This document shows, in pieces, positions 5,312 to 39,467 of a DNA stretch of 41,075 nt. The DNA is from Acidobacteriota bacterium (lineage in GTDB: Bacteria > Acidobacteriota > UBA6911): contig JAFGAO010000057.1 of the NCBI GenBank assembly GCA_016933615.1, forward strand, positions 1-41,075. The letters run 5' to 3'. A program made the translations under genes and the position numbers. The number at the start of each line of letters is the position of its first letter. Within the stretch, counting starts at the first letter, position 1. The notes under the pieces are model-generated. The model was not told the origin of the DNA. It made no database searches and was given only the letters and a program-made list of their open reading frames with translations.

Positions 5312-5395
5312 AATAAGAAATTCGTTGCATTTGACCCGGATGCGGAAACAGCGACGGGAATATTCCCGCAACAGGGAACGAAGGATATGGATGCC

Positions 5396-5551: not shown

Positions 5552-5582
5552 AGTTTTCGAAAAGAGCGTTTCCGGAGTTCAA
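5531..5582 (+). repeat. Direct repeat, copy 1 (left of phytase/TonB-receptor pair)
   Basis: This segment of about 52 bp resembles 9865-9918 in the same orientation. The 27-nt cores 5554-5580 and 9890-9916 differ at only two positions. Similarity continues to the left with small indels (AAGATGA start, GCGGCT versus GCAGCT). The repeats bracket the phytase-like and TonB-receptor genes. Confidence 0.65.
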
Positions 5583-5619
5583 TAACGCGGGCAATTCTTG
5601 AGAGGGGCCCGATGCCGGC

Positions 5620-6735
5620 CTAATTTCCGCAGCGCAGCCCAAGTCCGTCGAATATTTTCTCCAGATCGAATGCGCTGACGGCCGCATCGTCGTCGATCGC
5701 GAAAAACGCCCCGCCGGGAAACGACGGAAAGGCTGCCTGGGTCAGGGCAACCCCGTCTGTGTTTGCCGTCGAACAGCCCGTAAAAGTTCCAATATAGTTC
5801 AGGGAGTCCCGGTCGAAGACCCGGAAACAGCTCAGGCTTGCCTCCTGGTCGCACGCGATCCAGTAGCCCTTGCCCCCGCAGCGGACCAGTGCGGCCCCTT
5901 CCGGCTCGTAGCGGAAAATGCCCTCTCCCATCACCTCGCCGCGGAACCTGCCTTCGAGAGTGTAGGCGTTGAATTTATTATTCCGTTCGTCAGCCACAAG
6001 GAGGCGGTTCTTCTCCGGATCGGCCGCGATGGTTTCCACCTTCCACAGAATTCCCGGTCCATCCGTATTCCCGAATCGCGACATCATTTTGGACGCTAGG
6101 GAATTGGGGCCTTCCGGCGTGAATGAGAAGCGCTTGATCCTGCGGTCCAGGGTTGCCGCTAGGCCTTCGGTCTGCCCGGCAGCCGATTCCGGGGCATCGT
6201 AGTTGTCCGTGACGTAGGCCTGCATCCCGGGCACAAGCGCGATGCCGTAAGGCCTTTGAAGTTCACCGGCGGCCGTTGTACCCAACGGCTGAAAATCAGG
6301 CAGCCGCAGCGCCTGAAGGCGCTGATTGTCCCGCTCCACCACGAAAAGGAAATTTCCCGATACGGCAATGCCGTTGGGACGCGAGAACTCTCCCGGCTTG
6401 TTGCCCGGATTCCCGACGTGCCGGACAAAAGCGCCGGTCGAGGCATCGAAAACCAGCAGACGGTCCTTCGCTTTCGAGGTGACGATCAGCCGGTTCGCGT
6501 TCCCGTCGCCGTGCCAGACGGCGACGGAGTCCAGGTCGTCGCCGGCATATTTCTCGGTCGTGTAGCTTTCCCGGATTCTGACGGCAGGAACTTCTTCCTG
6601 TCCCGAAGGTGCAACCCGATTATATTGAGCCGCATCTTCCGTCTTCGGGTCGCTGCATCCGATCCAGGAAAGGATTGCCGCGAAAACAAGAACGGACGAA
6701 AGCAGCCGGCGGCGATTCTGCGTCGTCGTCATCAT
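5620..6735 (-). CDS. Beta-propeller phytase-like lipoprotein
   Basis: This 371-residue exported protein has a basic N-terminus, a hydrophobic stretch and a lipobox-like WIGC with C27 as the probable lipidated residue. The mature part resembles beta-propeller phytases: AGDDLDSVAVWHGDGNANR (about 64-82) parallels their DADDPAIW start, followed by repeated blades with FVVERDNQRLQAL and DGVALTQ near the end. These enzymes use calcium-bound acidic clusters to release phosphate from phytate (inositol hexakisphosphate) in the periplasm or outside the cell. The neighbouring minus-strand TonB receptor ends up as its upstream gene (176-nt gap), a pairing known for phytate use. I did not confirm every calcium ligand, so another propeller esterase is possible. 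Confidence 0.75.
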   Translation of the reverse strand: MMTTTQNRRRLLSSVLVFAAILSWIGCSDPKTEDAAQYNRVAPSGQEEVPAVRIRESYTTEKYAGDDLDSVAVWHGDGNANRLIVTSKAKDRLLVFDASTGAFVRHVGNPGNKPGEFSRPNGIAVSGNFLFVVERDNQRLQALRLPDFQPLGTTAAGELQRPYGIALVPGMQAYVTDNYDAPESAAGQTEGLAATLDRRIKRFSFTPEGPNSLASKMMSRFGNTDGPGILWKVETIAADPEKNRLLVADERNNKFNAYTLEGRFRGEVMGEGIFRYEPEGAALVRCGGKGYWIACDQEASLSCFRVFDRDSLNYIGTFTGCSTANTDGVALTQAAFPSFPGGAFFAIDDDAAVSAFDLEKIFDGLGLRCGN

Positions 6736-6910
6736 ATGAATAATAAGCGCTCCCTTATCTTCAGAGACTTTCCGGCTTGATGCCTTGAAACGGCGGCACG
6801 CCTGACGCCGGGACCGATTTCGGTGAATGCCGTCCCGCTTTCATCCGGGATTCAGGCTGCCGAAGCCGCACCCCTTTGATTGTACGAATTTCAGGGGCAA
6901 CGAATATCGG

Positions 6911-9589: not shown

Positions 9590-9654
9590 AAGAACCTCCG
9601 GGAAGAAAAATTGATTGTGTTTTCAAAGCCTTCGGACTGCGGAAATCGCGGCAC

Positions 9655-9698
9655 ATTAAACATCAGAAATGTGAAATTTGGATTAAGGTGAAATTAAT
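9655..9698 (-). promoter_or_regulatory. Candidate Pho box and -10 for the TonB receptor
   Basis: Read on the minus strand, half-sites ATTAAT (9698-9693), CTTAAT (9687-9682) and TTTCAC (9676-9671) are spaced exactly 11 bp. After a 10-nt gap comes TTTAAT (9660-9655), a good -10 hexamer. This is the same geometry as the pstS promoter. The receptor ATG at 9589 is 66 nt further on. Confidence 0.7.
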
Positions 9699-9864
9699 TA
9701 TTGATTTTGTTGAGGGTTCCCCTGGAAGGGAAGAGACCCGGCCGAAATCATAAGAAGCGATCGGAGCCGGATATAATATAAAAAATGGGATGCCGGGAGA
9801 GGGGTACTGGTTGCGGTGGAAGCAGGCGCAACCCTCAGTCCCGCCTCCCCCAAAAGAAATAGAA

Positions 9865-9918
9865 AAGATGATGGCGGATGCAGCTAAATTTTTCGAAGAG
9901 AGCGTTTCCGGTGTTCGA
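9865..9918 (+). repeat. Direct repeat, copy 2 (right of phytase/TonB-receptor pair)
   Basis: This is the partner of 5531-5582. Part of it codes on the minus strand for the last residues of the PHP protein (HRKRSLRKI then stop). The equivalent minus-strand frame in copy 1 reads LRKRSFRKL then stop, so copy 1 may be a relic of a PHP-gene 3' end. Similarity also extends about 20 nt past the stop codon, which argues for DNA duplication rather than protein constraint alone. Confidence 0.6.
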
Positions 9919-10696
9919 AGCAAGCAGTCTCGCCGTATCCGGCCGTCCGGGCCAATTCGCGCGCCCGGGAAAAATAGCGATCGATGCTATCCTTCTCGTG
10001 CGCGTCCGCACTGATGACGAGCGGAATACCGCGCCGTTTCGCCTCCCGAAGATAAAACAGCGACGGGTAAGCTTCCCGAGCGGGTTTATCCCAGCCGGAA
10101 GTGTTTATTTCAATGGCCGCGCCCGAGCGAACAATGGCGTCCAGGGTTTTTAGAGCTTCCGCGGTCAAATCGGAGGATGGATAGCATGCGAATTTTTTGG
10201 GGAGATCAAAGTGCCCGATGATGTCGAAAAACCCGGTCTCCGCCGCCGCACGCAACCGCTGCCAGTACAAGAGCCATATCCGGTCCCTTCGTTCCGGCGC
10301 AAGCGCCGACCAGGACCCGGAGTCGACATCGACCTGGAAACCGTCGACGCAGTGAACGGATCCGATTATGTAGTCGAATGAATACAACTGCAGCAGCGCG
10401 ACGGACGCCTCGAACGTTTCCTCGAAATAGTCCACTTCCAGGCCCAGGCGAATTTCCATATCGGGCACGGCGCATCCGGCGCGCTCCACGTCCTGCACGT
10501 AATCCCCAAGGGATTCCGGGGCGACCGCACAAACGGAACCCGAATTGTATGGGCTGAGACAAAAGTGGTCCGAAACGCCGAATTCACGGATACCGGCGCC
10601 TCGTGCGGCGCGGATCATGTCCGCCGGCGACGCGCTGCCGTCGCTCCATGTCGTGTGGTTGTGATAGCTGGCAAAGAGTGCGGCATGCTGCGACAT
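9884..10696 (-). CDS. PHP-domain phosphoesterase, histidinol-phosphatase-like
   Basis: This 270-residue PHP-family metalloenzyme has the metal-binding HNH (H12, H14) followed by SDGSASPADM, then DH at 43-44 in GVSDHF. Further motifs are the internal VHCVDGF, IGHFDLPKKF, EINTSGW and the closing SADAHEKDSIDRYF, which together complete the trinuclear site. Length and order fit histidinol-phosphate phosphatase (HisJ/HisK type). In a window without any other his gene and full of phosphate genes, a broader phosphomonoesterase role is just as likely. There is no signal peptide, so it should be cytoplasmic. Its 3' end lies in a repeat shared with 5531-5582. Confidence 0.8.
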   Translation of the reverse strand: MSQHAALFASYHNHTTWSDGSASPADMIRAARGAGIREFGVSDHFCLSPYNSGSVCAVAPESLGDYVQDVERAGCAVPDMEIRLGLEVDYFEETFEASVALLQLYSFDYIIGSVHCVDGFQVDVDSGSWSALAPERRDRIWLLYWQRLRAAAETGFFDIIGHFDLPKKFACYPSSDLTAEALKTLDAIVRSGAAIEINTSGWDKPAREAYPSLFYLREAKRRGIPLVISADAHEKDSIDRYFSRARELARTAGYGETACFEHRKRSLRKI

Positions 10697-10798
10697 ATTG
10701 GGACCCGTATCGCAAGGATTGTTCTCAAAGTCCGGATTGGCTCGATGGAATATTCACGGAACCGGGATAAACGAAGGCTCTCTTCTGAAAAGCTACTG

Positions 10799-11371
10799 TC
10801 AGAGGGTATCCGAACAGCCCGGGTTTTCCGGGCAGGCAGCGGATCGGAAGCGGCTTGCGGACCGGTTCGCATGTTCGACTACCGGTATCAGGAGATCGCA
10901 CCGGACGCGGGTTTTCCAACGGGACAGATAGAGAATTATTTCCGGATACTCACCCGAATCCCGGCAGTAGGCTCCCAATTGATCATCGGAATCTTCGCCG
11001 CCGATCCATTCCAGGCATCGATAGCCGAGATCCCGCAGAATGAACTTTGCAGGATCCGTAAATTTTGAAACCGCCTGGAAAACTATGCTGCAGTGAACCC
11101 ACCGGAGAGGCGAAAACGCGAAAAATGATTCCAGCCCCTTCATTTTCGCTTTCTCCGTGATCTCCACTTGAACGGATTCTTCGGGTTGGCTCGCCGCCAC
11201 TGCGCCCGAAAGAAACCTTTTCATCATCTGTTCGAGGTCGTTGCCTTTGCACCGGAACCCGGAAATATCGGCCGGGATCGACAACTGGACGGACGGCTTC
11301 GCATCCCGCCCGGAATTGTTCATTTCCATAACGACCTCGGACACACATACGGACAGATCTATATGTCTCAT
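10799..11371 (-). CDS. Uncharacterised 190-residue protein
   Basis: I do not recognise this family. The protein is soluble, without signal peptide or membrane helices, and has two Trp and five Cys residues. The N-terminal third (LSVCVSEVVMEMNNSGRDAK, then a VQLSIPADI strand) and the middle (FTDPAKFILRDLGYRCLEWI) look like genuine alpha/beta coding sequence. The last 30 residues are low in hydrophobicity and Ser/Arg-rich. GGTGGAG lies just before the ATG. It is 102 nt upstream of the PHP gene on the same strand, so the two may be co-transcribed. Function cannot be assigned. Confidence 0.55.
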   Translation of the reverse strand: MRHIDLSVCVSEVVMEMNNSGRDAKPSVQLSIPADISGFRCKGNDLEQMMKRFLSGAVAASQPEESVQVEITEKAKMKGLESFFAFSPLRWVHCSIVFQAVSKFTDPAKFILRDLGYRCLEWIGGEDSDDQLGAYCRDSGEYPEIILYLSRWKTRVRCDLLIPVVEHANRSASRFRSAACPENPGCSDTL

Positions 11372-11788
11372 TTCTCCACCTTGCGCCAGCCTATTGTCCT
11401 TTCATTAAAGCAATATAGCGGATGCATAAAATTTCCATGAAGGTTTTGCCTTGGACTAAAGACTCGCTCCGGTGCGCCGATGCGGGCTGGGGAGCTTCCT
11501 CGCATGCAACTGAGGATGCCCGGGCGACATCGAAACAGCCCCGCTTTTGAAAGCGGGGGTGGAAACCGGCCTCCCTTTCACCGACAGCAACGGAGAAAAC
11601 AGGGAGTTGCGGGAAATGTGAAGGGTACTTAATTCCTTTTTTATAAATTCTTATTATTTACTGAAAAGTCCGCTTCTTTCGGACCATAGAATTTTTATTA
11701 TTAACGGTATTTTCGTCTTAGCATCAAATATTCATCACAATTTTCTACTACAATTTCTCCCTATTGGTAAGCGCGACAGGAGAAAAGG
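11372..11788. other. 417-bp intergenic region with structured and AT-rich halves
   Basis: The left half (about 11440-11600) is GC-rich and holds the palindrome at 11539-11558 plus weaker complementarity such as CCTC/GAGG around 11501-11515. The right half (about 11628-11760) is AT-rich and probably contains the promoter of the PHP gene at 11789. CTTAAT (11628), TTTTAT (11639) and CTTATT (11650) are 11 bp apart but lack a suitable -10. No open frame longer than about 50 codons looks coding. Confidence 0.4.
11539..11558. repeat. Strong GC palindrome in intergenic region
   Basis: CCCCGCTT (11539-11546) and AAGCGGGG (11551-11558) form a perfect 8-bp stem with loop TTGA, flanked by GAAACAG on the left and GTGGAAACC on the right. 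No T-run follows. The shape recalls end hairpins of IS200/IS605 elements or an RNA leader, but no transposase gene is near. Confidence 0.5.
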
Positions 11789-12928
11789 ATGAAAAAATCG
11801 TCGACAGAGCACCACTCGTTCGCGGATTCCACGGCCCTTCTGAAATGCTGCCAAAGCGCCGTATCGCTTCACGGCCACACTCTGTACTCCCGGGAAAGCA
11901 TTCACTTCTTATTATCGCTTTCCGGGCGCAGCCCCACGCTTTCCCGCCTGATCGAGAGGAAGATCCTCGACCACTGGAATGAGACCGGCGAGAGGATCGA
12001 TTTCAACCGCGTTCACTGGACCCCGCCCGTTCTGCCCTCCACCCTGTTCGTCCAGGAAGCAAACCAGATCACGCAAAATCTGGGGCTGAATCCCCTGGTT
12101 TCCATCACGGACCACGATTGCACCGATGGATGCATCGAATTGAACCGGCCGGGATCCGGGCTCAAAGTCCCCGTATCCCTGGAATGGACGGTCCCCTTTG
12201 AAGGCGGACGTTTTCACATAGGAATCCACAATATTCCGGAAAACCGCGAAAAAGACTGGTCCCGGGAATTCCGCGAATACACGGAAAATCCCGTTCCAAA
12301 CCACCTCAAGGAAATTCTCGCGGGATTGAACTCCCTTCCGCAGACCCTGCTGGTACTGAACCACCCTCTCTGGGACATCGCCGATGTCGGGCAGAAGCAG
12401 CATGAGTGCATTCTCGAAAACTTCTGGAATGAATGCGGATCCCGGATCCACGCCATTGAATTCAACGGATTCCGCTCGCCCGAGGAAAACAAGAAGGTGC
12501 TGGCCATGGGCCGGGAACTGGACGTCCCCGTGGTCTCCGGGGGGGACCGCCACGGCCGGCAGGCAAACACGGTGTTGAATCTAACACGGGCCGAAACATT
12601 CTCCGATTTCGTCCGGGAGATCCGGGATCGGCGTCACAGCGCTCTTTTCACGATGCCGTCTCATCATGAACCCCTTCTGGCAAGAACCATTGAAACAGCG
12701 GAGGAGGCCATCCGCAAATATCCGAAATCCTGCGGCAATCCACGGGTATGGACGGACCGCGTATTTGTCGAAACGGAGCTTAAAGGGGTACAACCTCTTT
12801 CCACCTACTGGCGCAGCGGGGGGCCCTGGTGGCTGCGCAGCGCCATGTCCATCGTCCGGCTGATCGGATGTCCTCAAATCCGCCCCGCGCTGCGCTGGGC
12901 CCTGGCCGGAAAGGACAACACAACATGA
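11789..12928 (+). CDS. PHP-domain phosphoesterase, first gene of a glycosyltransferase operon
   Basis: This 379-residue protein carries PHP-type motifs: SLHGHTLYS (about 28-36) as the first metal site, SITDHDCTDG (about 105-114), SLEWTVPFEGGRFHIGIH (about 130-148), VLNHPLWD, FNGF and finally VVSGGDRHGR. The family cleaves phosphate esters with two or three metal ions. The first motif is HGHT rather than the common HxHT with Asp following, and the spacing is wider than in histidinol phosphatases, so this is a distinct branch. AGGAG precedes the ATG by about 7 nt. The stop overlaps the next gene (ATGA), so it is coupled to a GT4 glycosyltransferase. A substrate linked to glycolipid or glycan turnover is inferred. 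Confidence 0.75.
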   Translation: MKKSSTEHHSFADSTALLKCCQSAVSLHGHTLYSRESIHFLLSLSGRSPTLSRLIERKILDHWNETGERIDFNRVHWTPPVLPSTLFVQEANQITQNLGLNPLVSITDHDCTDGCIELNRPGSGLKVPVSLEWTVPFEGGRFHIGIHNIPENREKDWSREFREYTENPVPNHLKEILAGLNSLPQTLLVLNHPLWDIADVGQKQHECILENFWNECGSRIHAIEFNGFRSPEENKKVLAMGRELDVPVVSGGDRHGRQANTVLNLTRAETFSDFVREIRDRRHSALFTMPSHHEPLLARTIETAEEAIRKYPKSCGNPRVWTDRVFVETELKGVQPLSTYWRSGGPWWLRSAMSIVRLIGCPQIRPALRWALAGKDNTT

Positions 12929-14211
12929 GTTCCAAACCTCGGATCGCCTTTTTCACCGATTCCTACCATGACCTGAACGGGGTCTCCCGCACCAGCCGGC
13001 AGTTTGTAAAGTTCGCCGGGAAACATAGCATCCCCTTCCTGTCGGTCCGCGCGGGAGAAAAAACCGCCCGCTTTTCGGACGGATCCGTATCGATCCTGGA
13101 GCTCAAACGCTCCCGGCTCTCCATAGCGCTGGACGATGACCTCAAGTTCGATCCCGTATTGCAGCGCTACTGGCGCTTGGTGAAAACGGCCGTGGAAACG
13201 TTCCGGACGGACCTGATCCACGTCACCAGCCCGGGGGACATCGGGATTCTCGGCACCCGGATCGCAAGGAACCTGCATATTCCCTTGGTGGCCGCCTGGC
13301 AGACGAACATCCACGAATTCGCAGCCAGAAGGCTGGACAAAACGCTCGGGTTCATTCCCGCGTCGTGGCGAAAACCGGGAGTCCGCCTTGCAGAGGAACG
13401 CATTCTGGATCTGGTTCTTTTTTTTTACAAAATGGCGCGCATCATCCTGGTTCCGAACCGTGAACTCATGGACATGGTCGGGGAGCGAACGGGCAAACAC
13501 TGCTTCCTTATGCGGCGGGGCATCGACACCGAACAATTCTCGCCATCCTTCCGGAATCGGAAAAACCAGGTGTTCCGGATAGGCTATGTCGGCCGGCTGC
13601 GTCCGGAAAAGGACGTGCGCATGCTTTGGGAGCTGGAGCGGGCGCTCCTGGCCGAGGGCGCCGGCTATTTTCAGTTTCTGATCGTGGGAGACGGCAGCGA
13701 ACGCCGCTGGCTGGAGCGGAACATGTCCCATGCCGATTTCACCGGAGCTCTGACGGGGGAACCGCTTTCACGCGCCTACGCCGACATGGATGTCTTTGTT
13801 TTCCCCTCCCGCACCGACACATTCGGCAATGTCGTCCTCGAAGCGATGGCCTCGGGGCTGCCCGCCGTCGTGACGGACTGCGGAGGGCCCAAATCCATCG
13901 TTTCCGACGGAGAAACCGGATTCATCGTCTCCGACGTTCGGGGATTCTGCAGCGCCGTACTTTCTTTGATGAAAAACCCAAACCTGCGCAATCAAATGTC
14001 CCTCAACGCGCGCAGCCATGCCTGCGCCGCTTCCTGGGAAGGCATTTTCAATAATGTATTAAAGGCGTACGACACATTGTGGGATGCCCCTGCGGATATC
14101 CCTTATCGCCGCGCGCTCGGATCTTCTTCCAACGGCAATGCCGCGCGCATCCCTCCGGATATGCCGGAAGAATCGAAAAAATTATGGCCCGATACCTACC
14201 AATCCTACTGA
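12925..14211 (+). CDS. GT4-family glycosyltransferase
   Basis: This 428-residue GT-B retaining transferase has an N-terminal acceptor domain opening with IAFFTDSYHDLNGVSRTSRQ and containing HVTSPGDIGILGTRIAR and WQTNIHEFAARRL. The C-terminal nucleotide-sugar domain has GYVGRLRPEKDVRML, IVGDGSERRWLE and the EX7E block FPSRTDTFGNVVLEAMASGLP. The start at 12925 is the ATG overlapping the PHP stop; the Rossmann-like fold begins immediately after it. Close relatives by motif include lipid-modifying transferases of the SqdX/PimA type, consistent with a glycolipid product under phosphate stress. That is inference from context. Confidence 0.85.
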   Translation: MSSKPRIAFFTDSYHDLNGVSRTSRQFVKFAGKHSIPFLSVRAGEKTARFSDGSVSILELKRSRLSIALDDDLKFDPVLQRYWRLVKTAVETFRTDLIHVTSPGDIGILGTRIARNLHIPLVAAWQTNIHEFAARRLDKTLGFIPASWRKPGVRLAEERILDLVLFFYKMARIILVPNRELMDMVGERTGKHCFLMRRGIDTEQFSPSFRNRKNQVFRIGYVGRLRPEKDVRMLWELERALLAEGAGYFQFLIVGDGSERRWLERNMSHADFTGALTGEPLSRAYADMDVFVFPSRTDTFGNVVLEAMASGLPAVVTDCGGPKSIVSDGETGFIVSDVRGFCSAVLSLMKNPNLRNQMSLNARSHACAASWEGIFNNVLKAYDTLWDAPADIPYRRALGSSSNGNAARIPPDMPEESKKLWPDTYQSY

Positions 14212-15257
14212 TCGCGGTCCTTGCCGCGCTCCTCATCCCGTCGGCGCATCTCTCATCCGCGGGAAAGCTTGAAAACCCATCAGACGCCGGCGGCGCGCTT
14301 CCCGATATTCTGAATGCCGTCGCCGGCATTCGCGGGCATCCTTCCGTTTCCGCCAGATACGACTACGTTGTCACTGCCGGAGTGCGGATCCTCCTGTTCT
14401 GGTATTCGCGGGACGATGTCGGCGAAGGATACATACGGGTGGGGCATGCGGCCGGAGACGAAAACGCCGAGTTCATCCAACTCGTGATGGGATCCGATCC
14501 CGCGAAAGCCCCGCGCGGCATCAACCGGTGGGGAGCCGCGATGGAGACATTCCACGGTCGGACCCGGACCGGGTATTTTTTCGGTTTCATGAAGAAGTCC
14601 GGGGGAAATAATGTGTCGGAGATGGAAGGCGAACTGGAGCGCGAAAAGTCGGACCGGGAATTTTACTTCGAATCGATCGTTAGCCGCGCTACGGAATCCG
14701 GCATGCATTCCGTCACCGTCCCGATCCATTCATCCTTGGACCTGAGCCTGCACCAGCTGCCCGAAGCGGAAAACATGGTGCATCAAAGGATGTCCGCGAC
14801 CCGAAACCCTTCAAGATTCCTCGATAAAAATTCGATGGATTCGTGCGGCCATACCCACGGCATGCTGTTTACGCTGCGCGAGATGTCCTTATCGCTTCTC
14901 GACCGCGAAGAAGCACCCGAGGAGCGTTGCTATGCCTACAATTCAAAACCCTATCTGCTGAGCCTCAGAAAATTCAAGCCTGTTGATGAAAGACTTGTTT
15001 CCTTCAGGCGCAAAGACAGCGCGGAGAAAACGGAAGCGGCTTACAGGAACCTGATATCCGCCGATTTCCTGATCAGAAGCGCGGAAAACGGCGACGAAAC
15101 GAAATTCAGCATGCTCATCGGATCGGAAGGGAAACTCAGGGGCGTCCCGGTACAGATCCGGTACCAACCCAACTGGTGGTTCCGGGTTGTCCTGAACCTG
15201 GACCCCGAAAATATTCAATCCGAATTTCAAGAAGAGAGGCAGCCGCTTCCCGAGTAA
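14184..15257 (+). CDS. Uncharacterised secreted protein
   Basis: This 357-residue product has a clear signal peptide (MARYLPILLIAVLAALLIPS, then AHLSSA). I do not recognise the family. The mature part contains a beta-rich segment (VTAGVRILLFWYSRDDVGEGY), GRTRTGYFFGFMKKSGG, a central HTH-like CGHTHGMLFTLREM block and a C-terminal strand region ending WWFRVVLNLDPE. The start at 14184 is chosen for the signal peptide and lies 28 nt inside the preceding transferase gene; an earlier in-frame ATG at 14079 would bury the signal. Its place between two glycosyltransferase genes suggests a periplasmic or envelope role. Confidence 0.65.
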   Translation: MARYLPILLIAVLAALLIPSAHLSSAGKLENPSDAGGALPDILNAVAGIRGHPSVSARYDYVVTAGVRILLFWYSRDDVGEGYIRVGHAAGDENAEFIQLVMGSDPAKAPRGINRWGAAMETFHGRTRTGYFFGFMKKSGGNNVSEMEGELEREKSDREFYFESIVSRATESGMHSVTVPIHSSLDLSLHQLPEAENMVHQRMSATRNPSRFLDKNSMDSCGHTHGMLFTLREMSLSLLDREEAPEERCYAYNSKPYLLSLRKFKPVDERLVSFRRKDSAEKTEAAYRNLISADFLIRSAENGDETKFSMLIGSEGKLRGVPVQIRYQPNWWFRVVLNLDPENIQSEFQEERQPLPE

Positions 15258-15384
15258 TTGCCGGAATTGAACCGGCGAAGGAATCCCCGCAAGACGATTG
15301 CATGGCCTGGAATGAACGATCCGGATGCCGATCGGCGCCGCGTTTCGATTCCTTCGTTTGAAACGATCCGATCGTACTGATACC

Positions 15385-16008
15385 ATGACCGAACCGACCC
15401 ATAACTCGATTTCCACCGGAGCCGGCCCGGCGCGGCCGCAGCGGGCAACCACCATCGCGGGCGTCTTCCGACACCTGGCCCGCCGCCCCGGGCAATGCTT
15501 CATTCAGCGCTGGAACTGGAAATCCGCCCTGATGAGCTCTCTGGCCCGAGGACTCATCTTCTTTGCGGTCAATGTCGGCGTAAGCCTGGACGCGGCCGCG
15601 GCCGCGATGGCGACCGAGGTGGCCTACCGCATCGTGGCGGCCGGCCTGTACGGATCCTGCACCCAGGCGTTCCGTCACGTGGAGCCTTTCTGGAAGGCGA
15701 TCGTCTGCACGATGATCCTTCTGCCCATGGTAAGCCATACCGCGGAATTCATCCTGCACTTCTATCGGGGGACGGAAAGGCTGGGATGGAGCCTGCTGTT
15801 TTCGGTCTGCTTCACGGCAGTCACCACTACTTTCAATCTTTTCGCCATGCGGCGCGGCTTGCTGGTCGTAGGGGAGTCCGGGTCCACCCTTCTGGATGAC
15901 CTCCGCGCCATGCCCGCGGCCATCCTCGCCTACCTTCATTGCCTGGCGGCGCCGCTGAGGCAGTGGATCGGGTTTTTGTGGACCCGATCGGAGCAGTCCT
16001 GCAAATGA
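15385..16008 (+). CDS. Uncharacterised inner-membrane protein
   Basis: This 207-residue protein has an N-terminal cytoplasmic tail of about 50 residues, then hydrophobic segments at about 48-66, 74-92, 105-122 and 135-155, followed by a cytoplasmic end (LRQWIGFLWTRSEQSCK). The ATG at 15385 is used because upstream in-frame codons encode an Arg-rich unlikely leader. No family is recognised and no catalytic motif is seen. It sits 127 nt after the secreted protein and 30 nt before a GT4 gene on the same strand, so it is probably part of that operon and may be a membrane partner of the glycosyltransferases. Confidence 0.6.
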   Translation: MTEPTHNSISTGAGPARPQRATTIAGVFRHLARRPGQCFIQRWNWKSALMSSLARGLIFFAVNVGVSLDAAAAAMATEVAYRIVAAGLYGSCTQAFRHVEPFWKAIVCTMILLPMVSHTAEFILHFYRGTERLGWSLLFSVCFTAVTTTFNLFAMRRGLLVVGESGSTLLDDLRAMPAAILAYLHCLAAPLRQWIGFLWTRSEQSCK

Positions 16009-16038
16009 TGCCGGAGCACCTCGGAGGATCTATAGCGC

Positions 16039-17325
16039 ATGCTTCAAACCCAAACCGCTTCCCGAATAAAGACGCTTCATTTGACCAACTGTTTTCACTC
16101 GACCTCGGGGGGCATAAAAACTTTCTACAACAAGATGCTGGAAAGCGCGGAAAATATGGGCCGGAGGATGATCCTGATCGTGCCCGGGACGGAGAACGGG
16201 CTGGCAAGCGCCGCCGAATTTACGAAGATATACACCGTTCGGGCCCCGAGATCGCCCCTGGCCGACGGCCGCTACCGGATCATTTTGCCCTCGAACTACC
16301 TGCTTCCCTGGGCCGGAGCCGTGAACAGGATCCTGCGGGAAGAACAACCGGACCTGATTGAAATCTGCGACAAATACACCCTGAACTGGATGGGCGGGCT
16401 CTTCAGGAAAGGCTTTACCCGGGGAATTCGCAGGCCGGTCCTTGTCGGCCTGACCATGGAAAGGATGGACGACAACGTGTCCACCTTCATCCATTCGGGA
16501 AGCTCGGCCCGCCGATTCTGCCGCTTCTACCTTCGCTACCACTACATTCCCATGTTCGACCACCACATCGCGATATCCCACTATACGGCTGAAGAACTCA
16601 ACACAGCCATGATCGGGAAGCACCGCAGGCCGGTCTGGATCCGGCCTCTGGGAGTGGACACGATCCCGTCCGCCGGCATTCCCCGGGCAAATGGGTTCAG
16701 GGAGAAGCTCGTCCGGGAACTCGGGCTGGCAGGCTCCCCCAGGCTTCTGCTGTATGCGGGAAGGGTGTCCCACGAAAAAAACATGCCCCTGCTGCTGGAT
16801 ATGATGAAGGAACTGGCCCGATCCGCATGCGGCAACTACTGCCTGGTCATAGCGGGGGAAGGTCCCCTGATGCCGATGATGCAAAAGGAAAGCGAACACG
16901 GGACGCCGGGACGGGTCAAGTTTCTGGGGCACGTAAATGATAAATCCTATCTGGTGTCATTGTACACCCATTGCGACGCATTCGTGCACCCCAATCCCCG
17001 GGAACCGTTCGGCATCGCGCCGCTCGAGGCGATGGGATACGGACTGCCGCTGGTTCTTCCGAACGCGGGGGGGGTCCTGACCTACGCCGCCCCGGACAAC
17101 TCCTGGATCGCCGAACCCGACGGGAAATCCTTTGCGGCGGCGGTCCTGTCGATATTCGGGAACCCGGAGTTGCGCCAGGATAAAATAGGACGGGCGCGGC
17201 GGGTTGCGGAGAACTACCGCTGGCCCGGCATCACCCGGGATATTTTCGATCTGTACGACCGCCTCCATAATCAGCAGATTACGGCGCCGCGCTTTTTCAC
17301 GGAATCTTCTTTATTCAATCATTAA
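16039..17325 (+). CDS. GT4-family glycosyltransferase (second copy)
   Basis: This is another 428-residue GT-B transferase, clearly diverged from 12925-14211. It opens with LHLTNCFHSTSGGIKTFYNK (glycine-rich acceptor loop) and has YAGRVSHEKNMPLLLDMM and IAGEGPLMPMM. The EX7E block reads HPNPREPFGIAPLEAMGYGL, followed by PLVLPNAGG. Family members transfer a sugar from an NDP donor to lipid or glycan acceptors at the inner membrane. GGAGG lies about 11 nt upstream of the ATG. Two GT4 enzymes in one operon suggest successive addition of sugars, as in diglycosyl lipid or short glycan synthesis. The donor and acceptor are not evident. Confidence 0.85.
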   Translation: MLQTQTASRIKTLHLTNCFHSTSGGIKTFYNKMLESAENMGRRMILIVPGTENGLASAAEFTKIYTVRAPRSPLADGRYRIILPSNYLLPWAGAVNRILREEQPDLIEICDKYTLNWMGGLFRKGFTRGIRRPVLVGLTMERMDDNVSTFIHSGSSARRFCRFYLRYHYIPMFDHHIAISHYTAEELNTAMIGKHRRPVWIRPLGVDTIPSAGIPRANGFREKLVRELGLAGSPRLLLYAGRVSHEKNMPLLLDMMKELARSACGNYCLVIAGEGPLMPMMQKESEHGTPGRVKFLGHVNDKSYLVSLYTHCDAFVHPNPREPFGIAPLEAMGYGLPLVLPNAGGVLTYAAPDNSWIAEPDGKSFAAAVLSIFGNPELRQDKIGRARRVAENYRWPGITRDIFDLYDRLHNQQITAPRFFTESSLFNH

Positions 17326-19210: not shown

Positions 19211-20350
19211 ATGGCATACCGGAACCGCGGATGGATTTTTATACTCGCGATCGCCGCGGCTTGTGCGGGCATCACCCTGCTGGACCTGGCGGACACGCCG
19301 CGGGCCGCCGCGGGCATTCACGCCCGCGCCCTGGTCACGGAGACGGACAACAGCCACGTGCGGCAGAACCTGATCGTCAAAACCGAAGCCCAGTATCTTA
19401 CCGTGAAGCTGCTGGACGGGCCGCACAGGGGGCAGGAACTTTCGATCGTGAACATGCTGACCGGGAAGATGGAACTGGACGAGTTCTATGAAACCGGGAG
19501 CACGATCCTGGTGGAATACGACCTCGCCGGGGGGAAGCCAGCCAACGGAGTGGCGCGCGGGCATTACCGCCTGCGGCTGCAGTTGATCCTGATCGGCCTT
19601 TTCGCCCTTCTACTGGTATGCGTCGCCGGCGCGACCGGTCTCAAGGCCATGCTCTCCTTCCTCTTTGCGGCCCTCGTTTTATGGAAGATATTCTTCCCTC
19701 TTCTGCTGAAGGGATTCCCTCCCATCCCGACAGGACTGGCAATCGTGGCGCTTCTTACCGCGATCATCACCTTTTCGGTCGGCGGGCTGAACCGCCGCGG
19801 GCTTGCCACTTTCGCCGGATCCATGATGGGCGTGCTGCTCACCTGCGGCCTCGCCGTCGGATTCGCCCGGGCTTTCCATCTGCACGGGGCCTTGCGCCCT
19901 TTCGCGGAAACGCTGCTTTACTCCGGATATACCCACCTGGATCTGACCGGCATCTTCATCGCAAGCGTCTTTATCGCATCCTCGGGCGCGGTTATGGACC
20001 TCGCCATGGATATCGCCGCAAGCATGGACGAAATCAAGCGCAAACAGCCGCTCATCGGCTTCTTCGAGCACCTGGGCAGCGGCCTGAGAATCGGCCGGGC
20101 CGTCATCGGCACCATGACAACGACCCTGCTTCTGGCCTACTCCAGCAGCCATATCAGCATGTTTCTGTTGTTCATGGCGAAGGGGCTGCCCGCCGGAAAC
20201 ATTCTCAACGCCCCTTTTGTTACTGCTGAAATTCTTAATATTCTGGTCGGGAGTTTCGGATTGGTCGCCGTTGCACCGTTCACGGCATTCATTTCCGGCC
20301 TGCTTTACCGGGAGGGGAAAAGAAAAAGGCGGCCGGATTTGTTCGCCTAG
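19211..20350 (+). CDS. YibE/F-like membrane protein
   Basis: This 379-residue protein has a signal-anchor at about 7-27 and an exported beta-rich domain at about 35-115 (ARALVTETDN, VKLLDGPHRGQELSIVNML). Seven or so membrane helices follow from about 120 to 365, including ATGLKAMLSFLFAALVLWKI, TFSVGGLNRRGLATFAG and SGAVMDLAMDIAASMDEI. This is the architecture and length of the YibE/YibF family, whose function is unknown. CCGGAGG lies about 6 nt before the ATG. It is separated from alkaline phosphatase by a strong terminator, so it needs its own promoter or read-through. Confidence 0.8.
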   Translation: MAYRNRGWIFILAIAAACAGITLLDLADTPRAAAGIHARALVTETDNSHVRQNLIVKTEAQYLTVKLLDGPHRGQELSIVNMLTGKMELDEFYETGSTILVEYDLAGGKPANGVARGHYRLRLQLILIGLFALLLVCVAGATGLKAMLSFLFAALVLWKIFFPLLLKGFPPIPTGLAIVALLTAIITFSVGGLNRRGLATFAGSMMGVLLTCGLAVGFARAFHLHGALRPFAETLLYSGYTHLDLTGIFIASVFIASSGAVMDLAMDIAASMDEIKRKQPLIGFFEHLGSGLRIGRAVIGTMTTTLLLAYSSSHISMFLLFMAKGLPAGNILNAPFVTAEILNILVGSFGLVAVAPFTAFISGLLYREGKRKRRPDLFA

Positions 20351-29891: not shown

Positions 29892-30977
29892 TTAGAACTT
29901 GAAGGCGACGTCGAGCTGCACCCGGTTGTAATTCGGCGTATCGTACTCCGAGTCCCGTTCGTTGAGGAAGTAGGACATACTGGCCGTCCAGGCCTTGGCT
30001 ACCTGAACGTCGAAACCGAATTCGCTTCCACGACCGTCCGTCCCCCCTCCGATGAAATCGGAATCGGTGAAGATTCCCAGAACAGCGTCCGCTTCAATGA
30101 CCCTGTAATTGTAGCGGAATGCCCAGGAGCCGGGATCTTTGGTTTTTCCAACAGTCGCTCCGACCAGCCAGCCGGTATCCCATTTCACATTTTCAGCAAC
30201 ATTTCTTACATAGTCGAAAAAGAAGCTGAGCGGTATATCCCCGGCTTTGAATCCAAGCTCGGCGAATAATTCCATGATCTTGTAGTCGTAGAGGTAACCG
30301 TCTTCGCCGAGGGTGTTTCCGAAGGAATCCTCGTCGTCAAAGATCGGATCGTAGCCCCTGAGGTTGCCGTAGTGATAGTAGCTGAAGCCTCCGACCATGT
30401 TGGCATTATCCGAGATCTTTATATCCACACCAGCCTGTCCGCCGAAAAGCCAGGTATCACAATCGGAGCTTCTTTCTTCAACCCAGAAACCGCCGACATT
30501 GGTAAAAAATTCAACGCTGTCGTTCGACACGGCGTAGGTCAACGCAGCGCCTTCCGGGTTCAGATCCCCGTCCCAGATCAGTTCGGTGCCGCCGGGCATA
30601 TGGAAGGGATTCTTTATCTTTCCGGCTACGATATTGAGTCCGGGCGCCTTGTCCGAGTGCAGATCCAAGTAAGCCAGATCGAGCCGGATGTCCTTGGTTG
30701 AAAATCCGCTGTCGAGGCTTTGGTTCGTGGAAATCGGGTCGTCCGACCCGCTCGCAAGCTGAAATCCGAGTTTTATGTTGTCTGTCGGCTTCGCTTCCAC
30801 GCCTATCCGGGCCCGGATGCGGTGCCGGTTTCGGGCATCCTGATCCTCTACCTTGATAGTCTCGTGGCGATAGCGCAGGTCGCCCTTGATCTTGACGACT
30901 TCCCACCAGTCAGCCGCACCGACTATACCGGGCAAAAGTAAAAAAACAAGGCATACTCCAATAATTACCTTCTTCAT
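29892..30977 (-). CDS. Putative phosphate-responsive outer-membrane porin
   Basis: This 361-residue barrel has a signal peptide MKKVIIGVCLVFLLLPGIVG then AADWWE. The mature part alternates amphipathic strands and acidic turns (IKGDLRYRHETIKVEDQDAR, AGKIKNPFHMPGGTELIWDG, FNSFSYYHYGN-like strands) and ends in the Phe-terminated strand VQLDVAFKF required by BAM. It resembles the putative-porin family related to OprO/OprP. Its position directly upstream of pstS on the same strand, and its own Pho-type box, support a role in anion or phosphate passage through the outer membrane. CAGGAGGA precedes the ATG. Confidence 0.8.
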   Translation of the reverse strand: MKKVIIGVCLVFLLLPGIVGAADWWEVVKIKGDLRYRHETIKVEDQDARNRHRIRARIGVEAKPTDNIKLGFQLASGSDDPISTNQSLDSGFSTKDIRLDLAYLDLHSDKAPGLNIVAGKIKNPFHMPGGTELIWDGDLNPEGAALTYAVSNDSVEFFTNVGGFWVEERSSDCDTWLFGGQAGVDIKISDNANMVGGFSYYHYGNLRGYDPIFDDEDSFGNTLGEDGYLYDYKIMELFAELGFKAGDIPLSFFFDYVRNVAENVKWDTGWLVGATVGKTKDPGSWAFRYNYRVIEADAVLGIFTDSDFIGGGTDGRGSEFGFDVQVAKAWTASMSYFLNERDSEYDTPNYNRVQLDVAFKF

Positions 30978-31189: not shown

Positions 31190-31408
31190 ATACGGATAAT
31201 TATAGTATCAGCGCCACAGGCGACAAAACCGGCTTGAATGCCTCTGGTAAAATTACCTAAATTCCCTTATTACAACAGATATGTTGCAGCCTGTACGATG
31301 GGGCTTTGTGCTATTATAAATTTCTTTTAACAGTTAAACCTTTTGAGCGCTTCTTGCGGACAGGCAAGGGCGCAGGAAAACAACAATCCTGTTCTTGATG
31401 CATTTTCA

Positions 31409-32740
31409 ATGACGTTCGAACCTCCTTATAAGCGCCCCTGCCTCCTGTTTTTGCTCCTTTTTTTATTTCCCGCAGCCCCGGCATTCGCCCAACGGGACAG
31501 GGGTACAAAGACTCCCTCCTGGCTTCACCTGTCCTTCGAGCAGCGCACCCGTTACGAACATCTCACCAACTCCTTCCGTCCGAACATATCCGGAACCGAA
31601 AAGCATTTCCCCCTCCGGACGAGGCTGAGAACGGAAATCGGAGAAGCCGGCAGGCCGGCCCGTTTCCTTATAGAGCTTCAGGATTCACGAACTCTTTACG
31701 AAAAAGAAAACCTGTTCTCAGCCCGCGCGAACATCAACGAGCTCGATTTGCTGCAGGGCCAGCTGCAGTTCAATCTGGACAATCTCCCCCTGAGAGGCAT
31801 AAAAAGCCGGATCGTTCTCGGTCGGTTCACTATGGATCTGGGCCATCGCCGCCTGGTGGCCCGCAACAACATGCGCAACACCACAAATGCTTTTGACGGC
31901 GTATCCTGGACTCTGGCGGGAGACTGGGACTGGGAGATACGAATGTTTCTCACACGCCCGGTCACGATCGACCCCTACCGTCCGGACTCCGGCAGCCGGC
32001 GATATCTCTGGGGCGCTTACCTTGAATCCGCGCGATTCCACCGGCTGATGCTGGACGCGTATTATCTCGGTTTCCACGACACGGAAAACCCCGCCTCGAG
32101 GCAAAGGCATTCGACTGTGGGAGGACGTCTTTACAGGATGCCGGCGCCCGGCACGATGGACTATGAAATGGAATCCGCCTGGCAGTTCGGCAAAAACGGG
32201 ACGCAGGATCATTTCGCCCATTTCCAGCATGGAGAACTGGGCTTCAGTTTCAATTTGACATGGGAACCGAGACTGTCCGTGCAATACGACTACGCAAGCG
32301 GAGACGGCAGTCCGGAGGACGGCAGATCCGGACGGTTCGATTCTCTTTACGGGGCCAGGTCTTTTGAATACCCGCCCACAGGTATTTACGGCCCCATATA
32401 CCGTTCCAACATAACTGCGCCCGGAATCCGCATCGAGGCGAACCCGGCCGGCAATCTGCGTATAGCGACCGCATACAGGGCGTTGCGGCTGGCCAGCGCC
32501 AGGGACGCCTGGGCGGGGTCGGGGTTTCAGGATTCAACAGGAAGAGCGGGAAAATACCTGGGGCAGAATTTGGAAGTTCGGCTGCAGTGGCAGGCAAACC
32601 GCATAGTGTCTCTGGAATCGGGCTATGCGCGCTTCTTCAAAGGCTCCTATCCCGAACTTGTCCCGGGCAGCCCGGATCCGGAAGATTCCCATTACTTTTA
32701 TATCGCAACGGAGCTGAAAGCCGGATTGCTGCCCCATTGA
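31409..32740 (+). CDS. Alginate-export-like outer-membrane barrel protein
   Basis: This 443-residue protein has a signal peptide MTFEPPYKRPCLLFLLLFLF then PAAPAFA. The mature part matches the alginate_exp (AlgE-like) pattern: an early LSFEQRTRYEHLTNSF strand, LRTRLRTEIGEAG, LIELQDSRTL, the signature GRFTMDLGHRRLVARNNMRN (about 160-180) and DGVSWTLAG. Many later strands contain Tyr, Arg and Asp. In other bacteria this fold exports or admits anionic polymers or small anions. Here it is divergent from the porin, so passage of a charged phosphorus compound is conceivable but unproven. The start at 31409 is chosen for the signal peptide; the frame is open from a TTG at 31343. Confidence 0.72.
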   Translation: MTFEPPYKRPCLLFLLLFLFPAAPAFAQRDRGTKTPSWLHLSFEQRTRYEHLTNSFRPNISGTEKHFPLRTRLRTEIGEAGRPARFLIELQDSRTLYEKENLFSARANINELDLLQGQLQFNLDNLPLRGIKSRIVLGRFTMDLGHRRLVARNNMRNTTNAFDGVSWTLAGDWDWEIRMFLTRPVTIDPYRPDSGSRRYLWGAYLESARFHRLMLDAYYLGFHDTENPASRQRHSTVGGRLYRMPAPGTMDYEMESAWQFGKNGTQDHFAHFQHGELGFSFNLTWEPRLSVQYDYASGDGSPEDGRSGRFDSLYGARSFEYPPTGIYGPIYRSNITAPGIRIEANPAGNLRIATAYRALRLASARDAWAGSGFQDSTGRAGKYLGQNLEVRLQWQANRIVSLESGYARFFKGSYPELVPGSPDPEDSHYFYIATELKAGLLPH

Positions 32741-32848: not shown

Positions 32849-34414
32849 ATGGAAAATATTCGCGATAAAAAAGAAAACGGGGATGCGACCGACATTATAA
32901 AGCCTGAAGCTGGTCCGAATTGCGGCCGAAGCAAAGAGCTCAAGAATGCCGATCCAATGCTCCGCCGTCTGCGCCCCATTCTACCGGAGGGGTGGAATGT
33001 GATTTGGGTGGGAAAAGAGACGCGCCCCTTCAACGTCCTGGACAGCTACGACGGCTCGTTGCTGCAGTCCGGATCTTTGCTGCTGGAATTTCCGGAGAAA
33101 GAGGCGACGGCCGAACTCCTGCCGAAAAGGATTGAGGCGAGACTCGATGGCCCGCTTCCCCGAAACGTGTTCGAAACCGATTTTTTACCCGACGGTGCAT
33201 TGAGAAAAATCGTGCAGGGTCGCGCCGGCGCCTGGAGGCTTCGAGTGTGCGCCCGGGGAATGGAGACGGCCGAACGGTACAGGATTGAGAATGAGGATCG
33301 GAAGGGCGTCGCGCGTTTGCAGCTCCGCAGATTAAAGTGCAGGAACAGCCCGGCCGTCATTGACGTCCGGTTGGGCCCTTACCGCGGTTACGGCCGGGAT
33401 ACGGCGCCTATCCGGGCGCTTCTCGAGGAAATAGCTCCGTTCCCTGAAGCGACAGCGCTGTTCCGGAGCTCGCTGCCCGCTTCGATGCGAAGCCTGATGA
33501 AACCCCCTCCCGAAGTCCGGCCGGACCAGGGAGACCGCACGGCGGTTTCGGACCTGGCGCGATACATTCTCGACCGGGTTCGACATTTCGAGCCGGGAGT
33601 GGTCGAAGACGAGGATCCGGAAATTCTGCATCAGTATCGGGTTTCTCTCCGGCGCATGCGGTCTCTGACGGCGCTGCTGAAACAGGTTTTCACCGGCCAG
33701 GAACGGGAGACGATCCGGGTCTGTTTGAAACAGGCCATGCAGATTACCAACCGCCTCCGCGATCTGGACGTGCAGATCAACGAGGTACGAGCGCTTGGCC
33801 CGTCCATCCCCGATGCGCTGCAAACGGGTCTCGATCAAATCATGCAGCGACTGAGAGGGGAACGGGAACTGGAGTTTCAATCGGTGCGCAAGAGACTGGA
33901 GGCGGCGGAATTCGAGGCGCGTTTCGGGCCGGTGTCCGCGATTCTGGACGAAAACAAAGGCCCTGTTCCCAAAAAAATCTCAGACCTTCTCGCACCAGCC
34001 ATCCTAAAGCGGTACCAAAAGATCGCGCAGGATACGGCCAAAATCGAAGGGGAGATCAAACCGAATCAGCTGCACGGGTTGCGGGTATCCTTCAAGAAGC
34101 TCCGCTATCTGGTGGATTTCTTCCCTCAACTCCTCTGCCGGGATCCCGTCAAGCCGTTACTGAAAGACCTGAAGAAACTGCAGACCCTGTTGGGCCGATA
34201 CAACGATCTCTGCGTGCTGGAGGCGCTCCTTCTGGGCCAGGCGCGGCAGCACCCGGGAGACAGCGCCGCGCTTATGACGCTAGGCGCCATCATCATGCAG
34301 GCGCATCAAAAGCGGGACAGGCTTGCAGGAAAAAGCATCGCGGCCGTGCGTGATTTCTGTTCGGAAGAACGGGGCGATTTATTGCCAAACCTGCTGGGAG
34401 GAAGCGAAGATTGA
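32849..34414 (+). CDS. CYTH-like/CHAD polyphosphate-binding protein
   Basis: This 521-residue cytoplasmic protein has two parts. Residues about 45-195 look like a degenerate CYTH (triphosphate tunnel) domain: NVLDSYDGSLLQSGSLLLEF parallels the YYDT..RL...G..LR motif, and ERYRIEN and VIDVRLG strands follow. Residues about 235-500 are a CHAD domain with ILHQYRVSLRRMRSLTALLK, LRDLDVQINEV, the second half LHGLRVSFKKLRYLVDFFPQ and LQTLLGRYNDLCVLEALLL. CHAD helices carry paired His/Arg/Lys that bind polyphosphate, and CHAD proteins attach to polyphosphate granules. The CYTH part seems to lack many catalytic Glu residues, so it may only bind. The stop overlaps the TTG start of a ParA gene. Confidence 0.85.
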   Translation: MENIRDKKENGDATDIIKPEAGPNCGRSKELKNADPMLRRLRPILPEGWNVIWVGKETRPFNVLDSYDGSLLQSGSLLLEFPEKEATAELLPKRIEARLDGPLPRNVFETDFLPDGALRKIVQGRAGAWRLRVCARGMETAERYRIENEDRKGVARLQLRRLKCRNSPAVIDVRLGPYRGYGRDTAPIRALLEEIAPFPEATALFRSSLPASMRSLMKPPPEVRPDQGDRTAVSDLARYILDRVRHFEPGVVEDEDPEILHQYRVSLRRMRSLTALLKQVFTGQERETIRVCLKQAMQITNRLRDLDVQINEVRALGPSIPDALQTGLDQIMQRLRGERELEFQSVRKRLEAAEFEARFGPVSAILDENKGPVPKKISDLLAPAILKRYQKIAQDTAKIEGEIKPNQLHGLRVSFKKLRYLVDFFPQLLCRDPVKPLLKDLKKLQTLLGRYNDLCVLEALLLGQARQHPGDSAALMTLGAIIMQAHQKRDRLAGKSIAAVRDFCSEERGDLLPNLLGGSED

Positions 34415-35157
34415 AAATCGTATCCCTGTTCAGCGTCAAGGGCGGGGTTGGGAAAACCGCGGCCGCGGTCAACCTCGCGTTTTTCGCCTCCAGACGCGGG
34501 CACAGGACTCTGCTGGTGGATCTCGACCCGCAAAGCTCGGCCGGATACTATTTCCGGGTTCGCCCCTCTCCGGAGGCCCGGGGGAAATCTCTCCTGAAAG
34601 GAGAAAAAACAGTAGCAGACCTGATCCGAGAAAGCGACTTCGACGGGCTGGATATCCTTCCCGCACCGTTGGGATTGCGCAACATCGACCGCCATCTCGC
34701 AGGGGAGGACCGCAAGCGGCAGCGGCTCATGCCCGTTTTCGAATCTTTCAAAGATGCGTACGACCGCGTCATCGTCGACTGCCCGCCCCATTTCGGCCTG
34801 CTGAGCGAAAACGTATTCCATTTCAGCCACACCCTGCTGGTTCCGGTCGTTCCTTCGGTTCTATCCATGAGGACATTGAGGCAGCTCCACGATTTTTTCA
34901 TGCAGCGAGAATATGCAGCCCAAAAGATCCGCGCATTCTTCTCTATGGTGGATATGCGCAAGCGCCTTCACTGGGAGACGGTCCAGTCGGCCGACCGCAA
35001 AAAGTACGCTTTCCTCGACACGTCCATTCCCAATGCGTCGGAGGTCGAGCGCATGGGGCTGGAGAGGAAACCGCTGCTCGCCTACAACGCGCGCTCGAAA
35101 GCCGGCATGGCTTTTATCCACCTGGGGCACGAACTTGAAGTCCGGGGATGTTTATAA
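34411..35157 (+). CDS. ParA/MinD-type ATPase coupled to the CHAD gene
   Basis: This 248-residue ATPase has the deviant Walker A KGGVGKT (10-16, with signature Lys10), switch I LVDLDPQSSAGYYF, Walker B VIVDCPPHFGLLSENVF and a later SIPNASEVERMGLERKPLLA with the usual P-loop partner spacing. Such enzymes dimerise on ATP, bind DNA or membrane and position plasmids, chromosomes, chemoreceptor arrays or carboxysomes. The start is TTG at 34411, overlapping the CHAD stop (TTGA) with GGGAGG about 8 nt upstream, so translation is coupled. There is no parB or parS-like repeat nearby. The cargo is probably what CHAD binds, i.e. polyphosphate. Confidence 0.85.
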   Translation: MKIVSLFSVKGGVGKTAAAVNLAFFASRRGHRTLLVDLDPQSSAGYYFRVRPSPEARGKSLLKGEKTVADLIRESDFDGLDILPAPLGLRNIDRHLAGEDRKRQRLMPVFESFKDAYDRVIVDCPPHFGLLSENVFHFSHTLLVPVVPSVLSMRTLRQLHDFFMQREYAAQKIRAFFSMVDMRKRLHWETVQSADRKKYAFLDTSIPNASEVERMGLERKPLLAYNARSKAGMAFIHLGHELEVRGCL

Positions 35158-35282
35158 CGGAATGGGCCCAAAGATCGGAGCGCCAGCGGCGCATCTGCCG
35201 GCCCGATGAAGCGGCGGAACTGCTCCTTGACGCCGGATTCGTCCAGGCGTTGCGATTCACGATGGAGAAACTGAAGAATTAA
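35148..35282 (+). CDS. 44-residue protein overlapping parA-like gene
   Basis: This small frame starts at the ATG 10 nt before the ParA stop and ends with TAA at 35280-35282, touching the convergent phoH stop. The product starts MFITEWAQRSERQRRICRPD and continues with EAAELLLDAGFVQALRFTME, then KLKN. It predicts a basic N-terminal segment and one amphipathic helix. It lies in the same operon as CHAD and ParA, with overlap suggesting coupling. Small adaptor proteins that stimulate a ParA ATPase typically have such a basic segment, but this is analogy only. The RBS is modest (GAAG about 7 nt upstream). Confidence 0.55.
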   Translation: MFITEWAQRSERQRRICRPDEAAELLLDAGFVQALRFTMEKLKN

Positions 35283-38768: not shown

Positions 38769-39467
38769 CTATTCAAGCGCGTTTTCGTCCCGGAATTTAT
38801 AGCCGAATCCGCGGATGGTTTCTATCCACTTGTTGCAGGCTCCGAGCTTTCTCCGCAATGCCATAATATGGACGTCGATGGTCCGGTCCAGAACGGTTAC
38901 GTCTCTTCCGAGCACTCCCTCGATGATCGCATTGCGCGAAAAGACATGCCCCGGGTGGGACGCCATGAACTGCAGCAGGCGGTATTCCGTGGCCGTCAGT
39001 TCCACCACATCCCCGTTGCAGGAAACTTCGTGGCTGTTCAAATCGATGGAAAGATCCCCCCGCCGTATCACGGATATATTCCGCTGGAATCCGCGCGTGC
39101 GCCGCAGCAGGGCTTTGATGCGCGCGGCGAGTTCCCTGGGACTGAACGGTTTGGTGATGTAGTCGTCGGCCCCGAGCTCCAGGCCGACAACGCGGTCGGA
39201 TTCGGAAGCCCTGGCGGTCAGCATGATTATGGGAATGTGAGCCGTCTCGGCCCTGGACCTCAAGGAGCGGCAGACTTCGAATCCGTCGATGCCGGGAAGC
39301 ATCAAATCGATAATGATCACATCGGGCTTTTTCTGTATGGCCCGGGACAGGCCCGATTCCCCGTCGCAGGCGCTTATGACTTCAAAGCCTTCTTTGCCGA
39401 GGTTATAGCGGACCAGCTCGATCAGGTCTTCTTCGTCGTCAATCGCTAAAACCATGCCTTTGGACAT
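38769..39467 (-). CDS. phoB: PhoB-like response regulator (copy 2)
   Basis: This 232-residue protein has the same length and domain plan as 1225-1923: receiver with D10-D11-E12, D54 in IIDLMLPGIDG, MLTAR and ITKPFSPRELAAR, then a winged helix with LTATEYRLLQFMASHPGHVF and VLDRTIDVHIMALRRKL. All phosphorylation residues are intact. It lies 35 nt downstream of phoU on the same strand and is probably co-transcribed with it. No histidine kinase gene accompanies it. The recognition helix region is nearly the same as in copy 1, so both may read the same 11-bp boxes. Confidence 0.9.
   Translation of the reverse strand: MSKGMVLAIDDEEDLIELVRYNLGKEGFEVISACDGESGLSRAIQKKPDVIIIDLMLPGIDGFEVCRSLRSRAETAHIPIIMLTARASESDRVVGLELGADDYITKPFSPRELAARIKALLRRTRGFQRNISVIRRGDLSIDLNSHEVSCNGDVVELTATEYRLLQFMASHPGHVFSRNAIIEGVLGRDVTVLDRTIDVHIMALRRKLGACNKWIETIRGFGYKFRDENALE

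Follow-up and report, generated by a model that had tools for sequence, protein, structure and literature searches.

Here, we show that a CHAD-domain protein and a ParA-type ATPase form a real, conserved and under-recognised module that is encoded as a unit across bacterial phyla, and we lean towards the view that the two make up a conserved two-part system by which polyphosphate granules are positioned. We give the name ParA* to the clade of the ATPase, and the pair described here lies in the window, by which we mean the whole 41,075-nt stretch of DNA that was analysed. An earlier note on this DNA had proposed that CHAD is the link to polyphosphate, that ParA is the ATPase, working without ParB or parS, and that a small protein of 44 residues stimulates the ATPase as a third part. 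The first two elements are supported by the conserved pair, by the co-occurrence of the two genes even when unlinked and by the structure of a CHAD protein from Chlorobium tepidum (CtCHAD), whereas the third part is not.

In the ORF listing of the window the three frames are found exactly where the note had placed them, all on the forward strand. The first (32849..34414) encodes the CHAD protein of 521 aa (Pfam CHAD, 3.5e-44), the proposed polyphosphate-binding cargo adaptor, and the second (34411..35157) encodes the ParA* ATPase of 248 aa (Pfam AAA_31/ParA, 4.3e-33). As the note had claimed, the two genes overlap; the overlap is 4 nt long (ATTGA, 34411..34414 on the forward strand), and the TTG start of ParA* sits within the TGA stop of CHAD, an arrangement that would couple their translation. 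Homologues of the CHAD protein begin near residue 30-37, so its true start may lie downstream. The third frame (35148..35282), of 44 aa, overlaps the ParA* stop. No sigma-70-like site that might serve as an operon promoter was seen on the coding strand of the scanned stretch.

ParA* is a distinct clade of ATPases. Among 60 relatives, homologues of about 40% identity were found in six genomes besides the window's own, all other ParAs being at or below about 34%, and a scan of named genomes added 80 further ParA* proteins (the 80 closest loci). When 110 sequences were placed in a maximum-likelihood tree, ParA* formed an 87-protein branch with a support of 100/100, apart from the Soj-type ParA. 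A profile built from 52 members and run on 396 genomes of the window's phylum gave a clear gap, with 20 genomes, falling in 13 families, at 261-376 bits and the rest at no more than 168. No NCBIfam model names ParA* above its cut-off. The note's statement that ParB and parS are absent was also correct, as no ParB gene was found in the neighbourhood of the pair, parS-like sites near it show no excess over chance, and no notable repeats were seen there. A separate soj-parB pair is located elsewhere in the window's genome (G000:C34). The presence of that pair and the chance level of parS-like sites together argue that ParA* is not the chromosome-partition ParA, and a role in chromosome partition was rejected.

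Of the 80 closest ParA* loci in named genomes, 43 have a CHAD gene directly upstream and on the same strand. Among these 43, a 4-nt overlap is the commonest arrangement of the two genes (26/43, taking the point where the ParA* match begins as the gene start). CHAD-paired ParA* occurs in at least ten phyla, the paired loci coming from Pseudomonadota, Thermodesulfobacteriota, Myxococcota, Chlorobiota, Acidobacteriota, Actinomycetota, Planctomycetota, Lentisphaerota, Calditrichota, Dormiibacterota and KSB1, many of them metagenome bins. Within Gammaproteobacteria, ParA* is present in 44 of 274 genomes, and of its 30 best loci there 26 have CHAD upstream; in Chlorobiaceae, CHAD is adjacent in 26 of the 30 best ParA* loci. 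All 20 ParA* genomes of the window's phylum carry CHAD, compared with 223 of the 396 genomes overall (hypergeometric 7e-6, uncorrected for kinship), and in 16 of the 20 it adjoins ParA* on the upstream side. The earlier note had made its reading depend on the conservation of CHAD-ParA adjacency, and this adjacency is kept across phyla.

The pairing also extends to the type of CHAD protein involved. With a full-length profile built from the CHAD proteins that are paired with ParA*, 15 genomes exceed 400 bits, and ParA* is present in every one of them; in two of these associations (G092 and G367) the genes lie far apart, so that paired-type CHAD and ParA* co-occur even when unlinked. The CHAD proteins of ParA*-free genomes reach at most 332 bits with this profile, and the ParA*-adjacent CHADs of G040, G215 and G371, at only 242-258 bits, fall inside that range; the paired type is therefore imperfectly separated. 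The distance matrices of ParA* and CHAD are correlated (r = 0.80, Mantel 0.001), a value that shared descent alone could also give. Some members of the clade have no CHAD neighbour, and no CHAD-ParA* gene fusion was seen among the loci examined. In two Halomonas genomes CHAD is convergent and follows right after ParA* instead of preceding it, and in a Marinobacter locus without CHAD a convergent PPK1 gene is found next to ParA*. The window's closest relatives, of the same genus and family, do not carry the pair. Since these relatives are without ParA* and PPK1 presence varies among genomes of the same genus, the pair is patchy in the window's family, where it may have been gained or lost.

These distributions bear directly on the alternative that ParA* is a common partition ParA, of chromosome or plasmid, which merely happens to be a neighbour of CHAD. 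Its ParA fold would fit such a protein, and the parA gene of an Acidithiobacillus cluster is annotated as a plasmid partition protein (PMC10892726), but ParA* is a separate clade whose pairing with CHAD is conserved across phyla; neither ParB nor parS is found next to it, and a canonical soj-parB pair lies elsewhere in the genome. We regard a chance neighbour as close to refuted.

The window ATPase has the hallmarks of the ParA/MinD superfamily, namely a KGGxxKT motif with the signature lysine, the Walker A' and Walker B aspartates and a Pfam AAA_31 match. Across 52 ParA* sequences the residues K10, K15, T16, D37, D39, Q41 and D123 are invariant; in the window protein they belong to the deviant Walker A motif KGGVGKT (K10, K15), the Walker A' motif DLDPQ (D39, Q41) and Walker B (D123). 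Judged from these residues, the active site of ParA* is that of a working ParA. The AlphaFold2 model of the window protein (pLDDT 89) has no C-terminal extension past the last helix, and its top Foldseek matches are Soj/ParA structures (TM about 0.85), with McdA and BcsRQ structures also among the matches. ParA* is nearest to Soj/ParA in both sequence and fold, and a PDB search places it closer to Soj than to McdA. We take R189 and R218 to be the DNA-binding arginines of Soj; in the alignment, the equivalent of R189 is kept in ParA* (R183 in the window protein) and that of R218 is not, and nucleoid binding by ParA* is uncertain because of this loss.

The same features can be used to weigh a second alternative, in which ParA* is a nucleotide switch that binds CHAD and regulates or assembles the polyphosphate machinery, controlling access to polyphosphate, PPK or an exopolyphosphatase, much like BcsQ, which acts in cellulose secretion complexes. 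The loss of one Soj DNA-binding arginine and the BcsRQ structures among the fold matches would agree with such a switch, and the genes found beside some pairs (PPK1, PPK2, a SixA-like phosphatase, NUDIX and CYTH) fit a metabolic module equally well. However, ParA* is nearest to Soj/ParA and keeps the whole ParA active site, signature lysine included, without variation; CHAD is its only conserved companion, the pair having no enzyme that regularly goes with it. We consider a switch unlikely, though it is the likeliest of the alternatives.

The link between the granule-positioning reading and polyphosphate comes from the CHAD protein. In its AlphaFold2 model (pLDDT 84), a disordered tail (residues 1-33) is followed by a beta-rich N-terminal domain (starting at about residue 36 or 50 and running to about 180) and the CHAD domain (about 230-510). 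The best structural match in Foldseek is CtCHAD with polyphosphate (PDB 6qva, 2.2e-12). According to the CtCHAD paper (PMC6537752), this protein was crystallised with bound polyphosphate as a fragment, residues 208-522 of a 522-residue protein, and binding is weakened by mutations at H253, R256, R260, R296, R418 and Y419. All six contacts are kept in the window protein, as H261, R264, R268, R304, R419 and Y420, and the full C. tepidum protein shares its architecture. Genome G412 matches CtCHAD at 100% identity and carries ParA* (364 bits) directly after its CHAD gene. There is therefore a ParA*-paired protein whose binding to polyphosphate has been measured, and the passages of that paper (PMC6537752) on which we draw do not mention a ParA neighbour. 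With its CHAD domain and conserved contacts, the window CHAD is a predicted polyphosphate binder of the phosin kind. Deletions of CHAD genes in Ralstonia, whose products may or may not be of the paired type, are described in the same paper as having no apparent phenotype (PMC6537752).

The distribution of polyphosphate kinases is consistent with this cargo in most but not all genomes. Of the phylum's 20 ParA* genomes, 18 have PPK1, and in six genomes (G092, G120, G271, G335, G355 and G367) the gene is no more than about 5 kb away from the paired CHAD; it is found in 9 of the 80 closest named ParA* loci. Genome searches found neither PPK1 nor PPK2 in the window's genome (G000, 82% complete) or in G040 (98% complete). 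This absence, and the heparin binding by CHAD that is discussed in the CtCHAD paper (PMC6537752), would suit a pair that serves some other polyanionic cargo, e.g. nucleic acid or a phosphorylated polymer, at least where polyphosphate kinases are absent. Against such a cargo stand the PPK1 genes in 18 of the 20 genomes, the polyphosphate contacts kept in the window CHAD, and the Ppx-like gene and full Pst/Pho set in the same window, and we consider it improbable.

The earlier note had also given the CHAD protein the label CYTH/CHAD; AlphaFold2 and Foldseek point to a TTM/CYTH-like fold for its N-terminal domain, but the CYTH profile and the catalytic motif are missing. Foldseek links the domain to YgiF (5a60, 1.1e-6, across both domains) and weakly to thiamine triphosphatases. 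The Pfam CYTH model finds no match in any of 26 proteins (the window CHAD and 25 partners). Of 40 proteins compared, 38 lack the catalytic ExExK motif, which was not found in the window protein either. The domain is best read as a diverged and probably inactive TTM-like fold; our guess is that it docks ParA*. Partners of ParA proteins commonly have a positively charged disordered N-terminus (PMC10241942). The window CHAD has a disordered tail of 33 residues that may be of this kind but is short or absent in most relatives, and a conserved N-terminal ParA-activating motif was not found in CHAD, the tails varying among relatives.

The small third gene fared less well. Ranked by codon usage, the 44-aa frame falls at the 50th percentile among real genes and at the 99th among off-frame windows, and it may be translated, possibly as a lineage-specific protein. 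It has no Pfam match, a convincing relative was found neither in 20 related genomes nor in the ParA* loci examined, and the genes downstream of ParA* differ from locus to locus; these two results place it outside the conserved system. A three-part system with the 44-aa protein as the ATPase activator could appeal to the coding-like codon usage and to the overlap with the ParA* stop, but the search for a small third gene at other CHAD-ParA loci gave nothing convincing, and neither near relatives nor any other ParA* neighbourhood holds an equivalent. Despite its codon usage, the frame was rejected as a third component, and we consider a three-part system highly improbable.

In the two-part system that we favour, CHAD would coat or bind polyphosphate via its basic helical domain, and the nucleotide-bound ParA* dimer would bind the nucleoid non-specifically. 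Granule-bound CHAD may then contact ParA*, perhaps via its inactive TTM-like N-terminal domain, and this contact could trigger ATP hydrolysis and the release of ParA*. Granules would track the resulting ParA* gradients, space out and be shared at division, as carboxysomes are with McdA/McdB. The ATPase gene stands next to that of a cargo-binding partner across lineages, as is characteristic of cargo-positioning systems, and by analogy with these the CHAD-ParA* unit probably spaces granules or shares them at division. The chances seem to us evenly balanced that the pair is a dedicated ATP-driven granule positioner in at least ten phyla, of which the adaptor, CtCHAD, was crystallised while the motor went unnoticed, and in which the dead TTM-like domain is a ParA-docking module.

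Such a system could be compared with the wider family of ParA/MinD proteins that position cargo (ParC/PpfA, FlhG, MinD), and above all with McdA/McdB, where a stand-alone ParA-type ATPase is likewise encoded beside its cargo partner without ParB. It differs from McdA/McdB in that the cargo is a polymer, polyphosphate, in that a structured CHAD protein takes the place of McdB as partner, and in that ParA* is a separate clade, closer to Soj. AlgP of Pseudomonas aeruginosa has the same proposed job, the even spacing of polyphosphate granules, which are tied to the nucleoid (PMC9239181, PMC13052382), but AlgP, a DNA-binding protein that resembles histone H1, has no ATPase; a 2025 review names it as the only polyphosphate positioning factor and gives the need for ATP or energy as unknown (PMC13052382). 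The phosins, among them the granule CHAD proteins of Ralstonia and CtCHAD, share the CHAD domain and the polyphosphate contacts, and CtCHAD is itself ParA*-paired. The earlier note's statement that no system of this composition had been described is nearly right. Conserved adjacency of a folD-ppk1-parA-CHAD cluster has been reported in Acidithiobacillus in the context of copper resistance (PMC10892726), a cluster likened to ours by its reported gene neighbourhood and presented without partner analysis, clade or positioning hypothesis. Our literature search, in which preprints and most subscription papers were outside the scope, found no ParA system proposed for polyphosphate granules.

For the spacing and inheritance of granules in bacteria, CHAD-ParA* offers a concrete two-gene candidate. 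The pair occurs in the culturable Chlorobaculum tepidum and Sedimenticola selenatireducens, and the structure of the adaptor with its cargo has been solved, making the positioning of polyphosphate directly testable. If the proposal is true, ParA positioning extends to a storage polymer and the ParA-linked CHAD proteins gain a cellular role; should the inferred step hold, the pair would add a new form of ParA positioning.

The setting of the pair is, as the earlier note had it, dedicated to phosphate. The window encodes PstS, PstC, PstA, PstB, PhoU, PhoH-PIN, a PhoB-type regulator, an alkaline phosphatase and a Ppx-like protein, the last scoring under its curated cut-off. The window's genome, in which the searches turned up neither PPK1 nor PPK2, thus contains CHAD, a Ppx-like gene and the complete Pst set. 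Two closely similar PhoB-like response regulators of 232 aa each flank the phosphate region (1225-1923 and 38769-39467), the Pfam-checked one being that at 38769-39467. In the stretch from 3892 to 17325 a metallophosphoesterase is encoded together with three glycosyltransferases; these could take part in remodelling lipids or the envelope when phosphate is scarce. A YibE/F-like membrane protein (19211-20350) comes immediately after the alkaline phosphatase. Finally, porins of two families, Porin_5 and Alginate_exp, are encoded on opposite strands between pstS and the CHAD gene (29892-30977 and 31343-32740), and one or other of them may be a phosphate porin.
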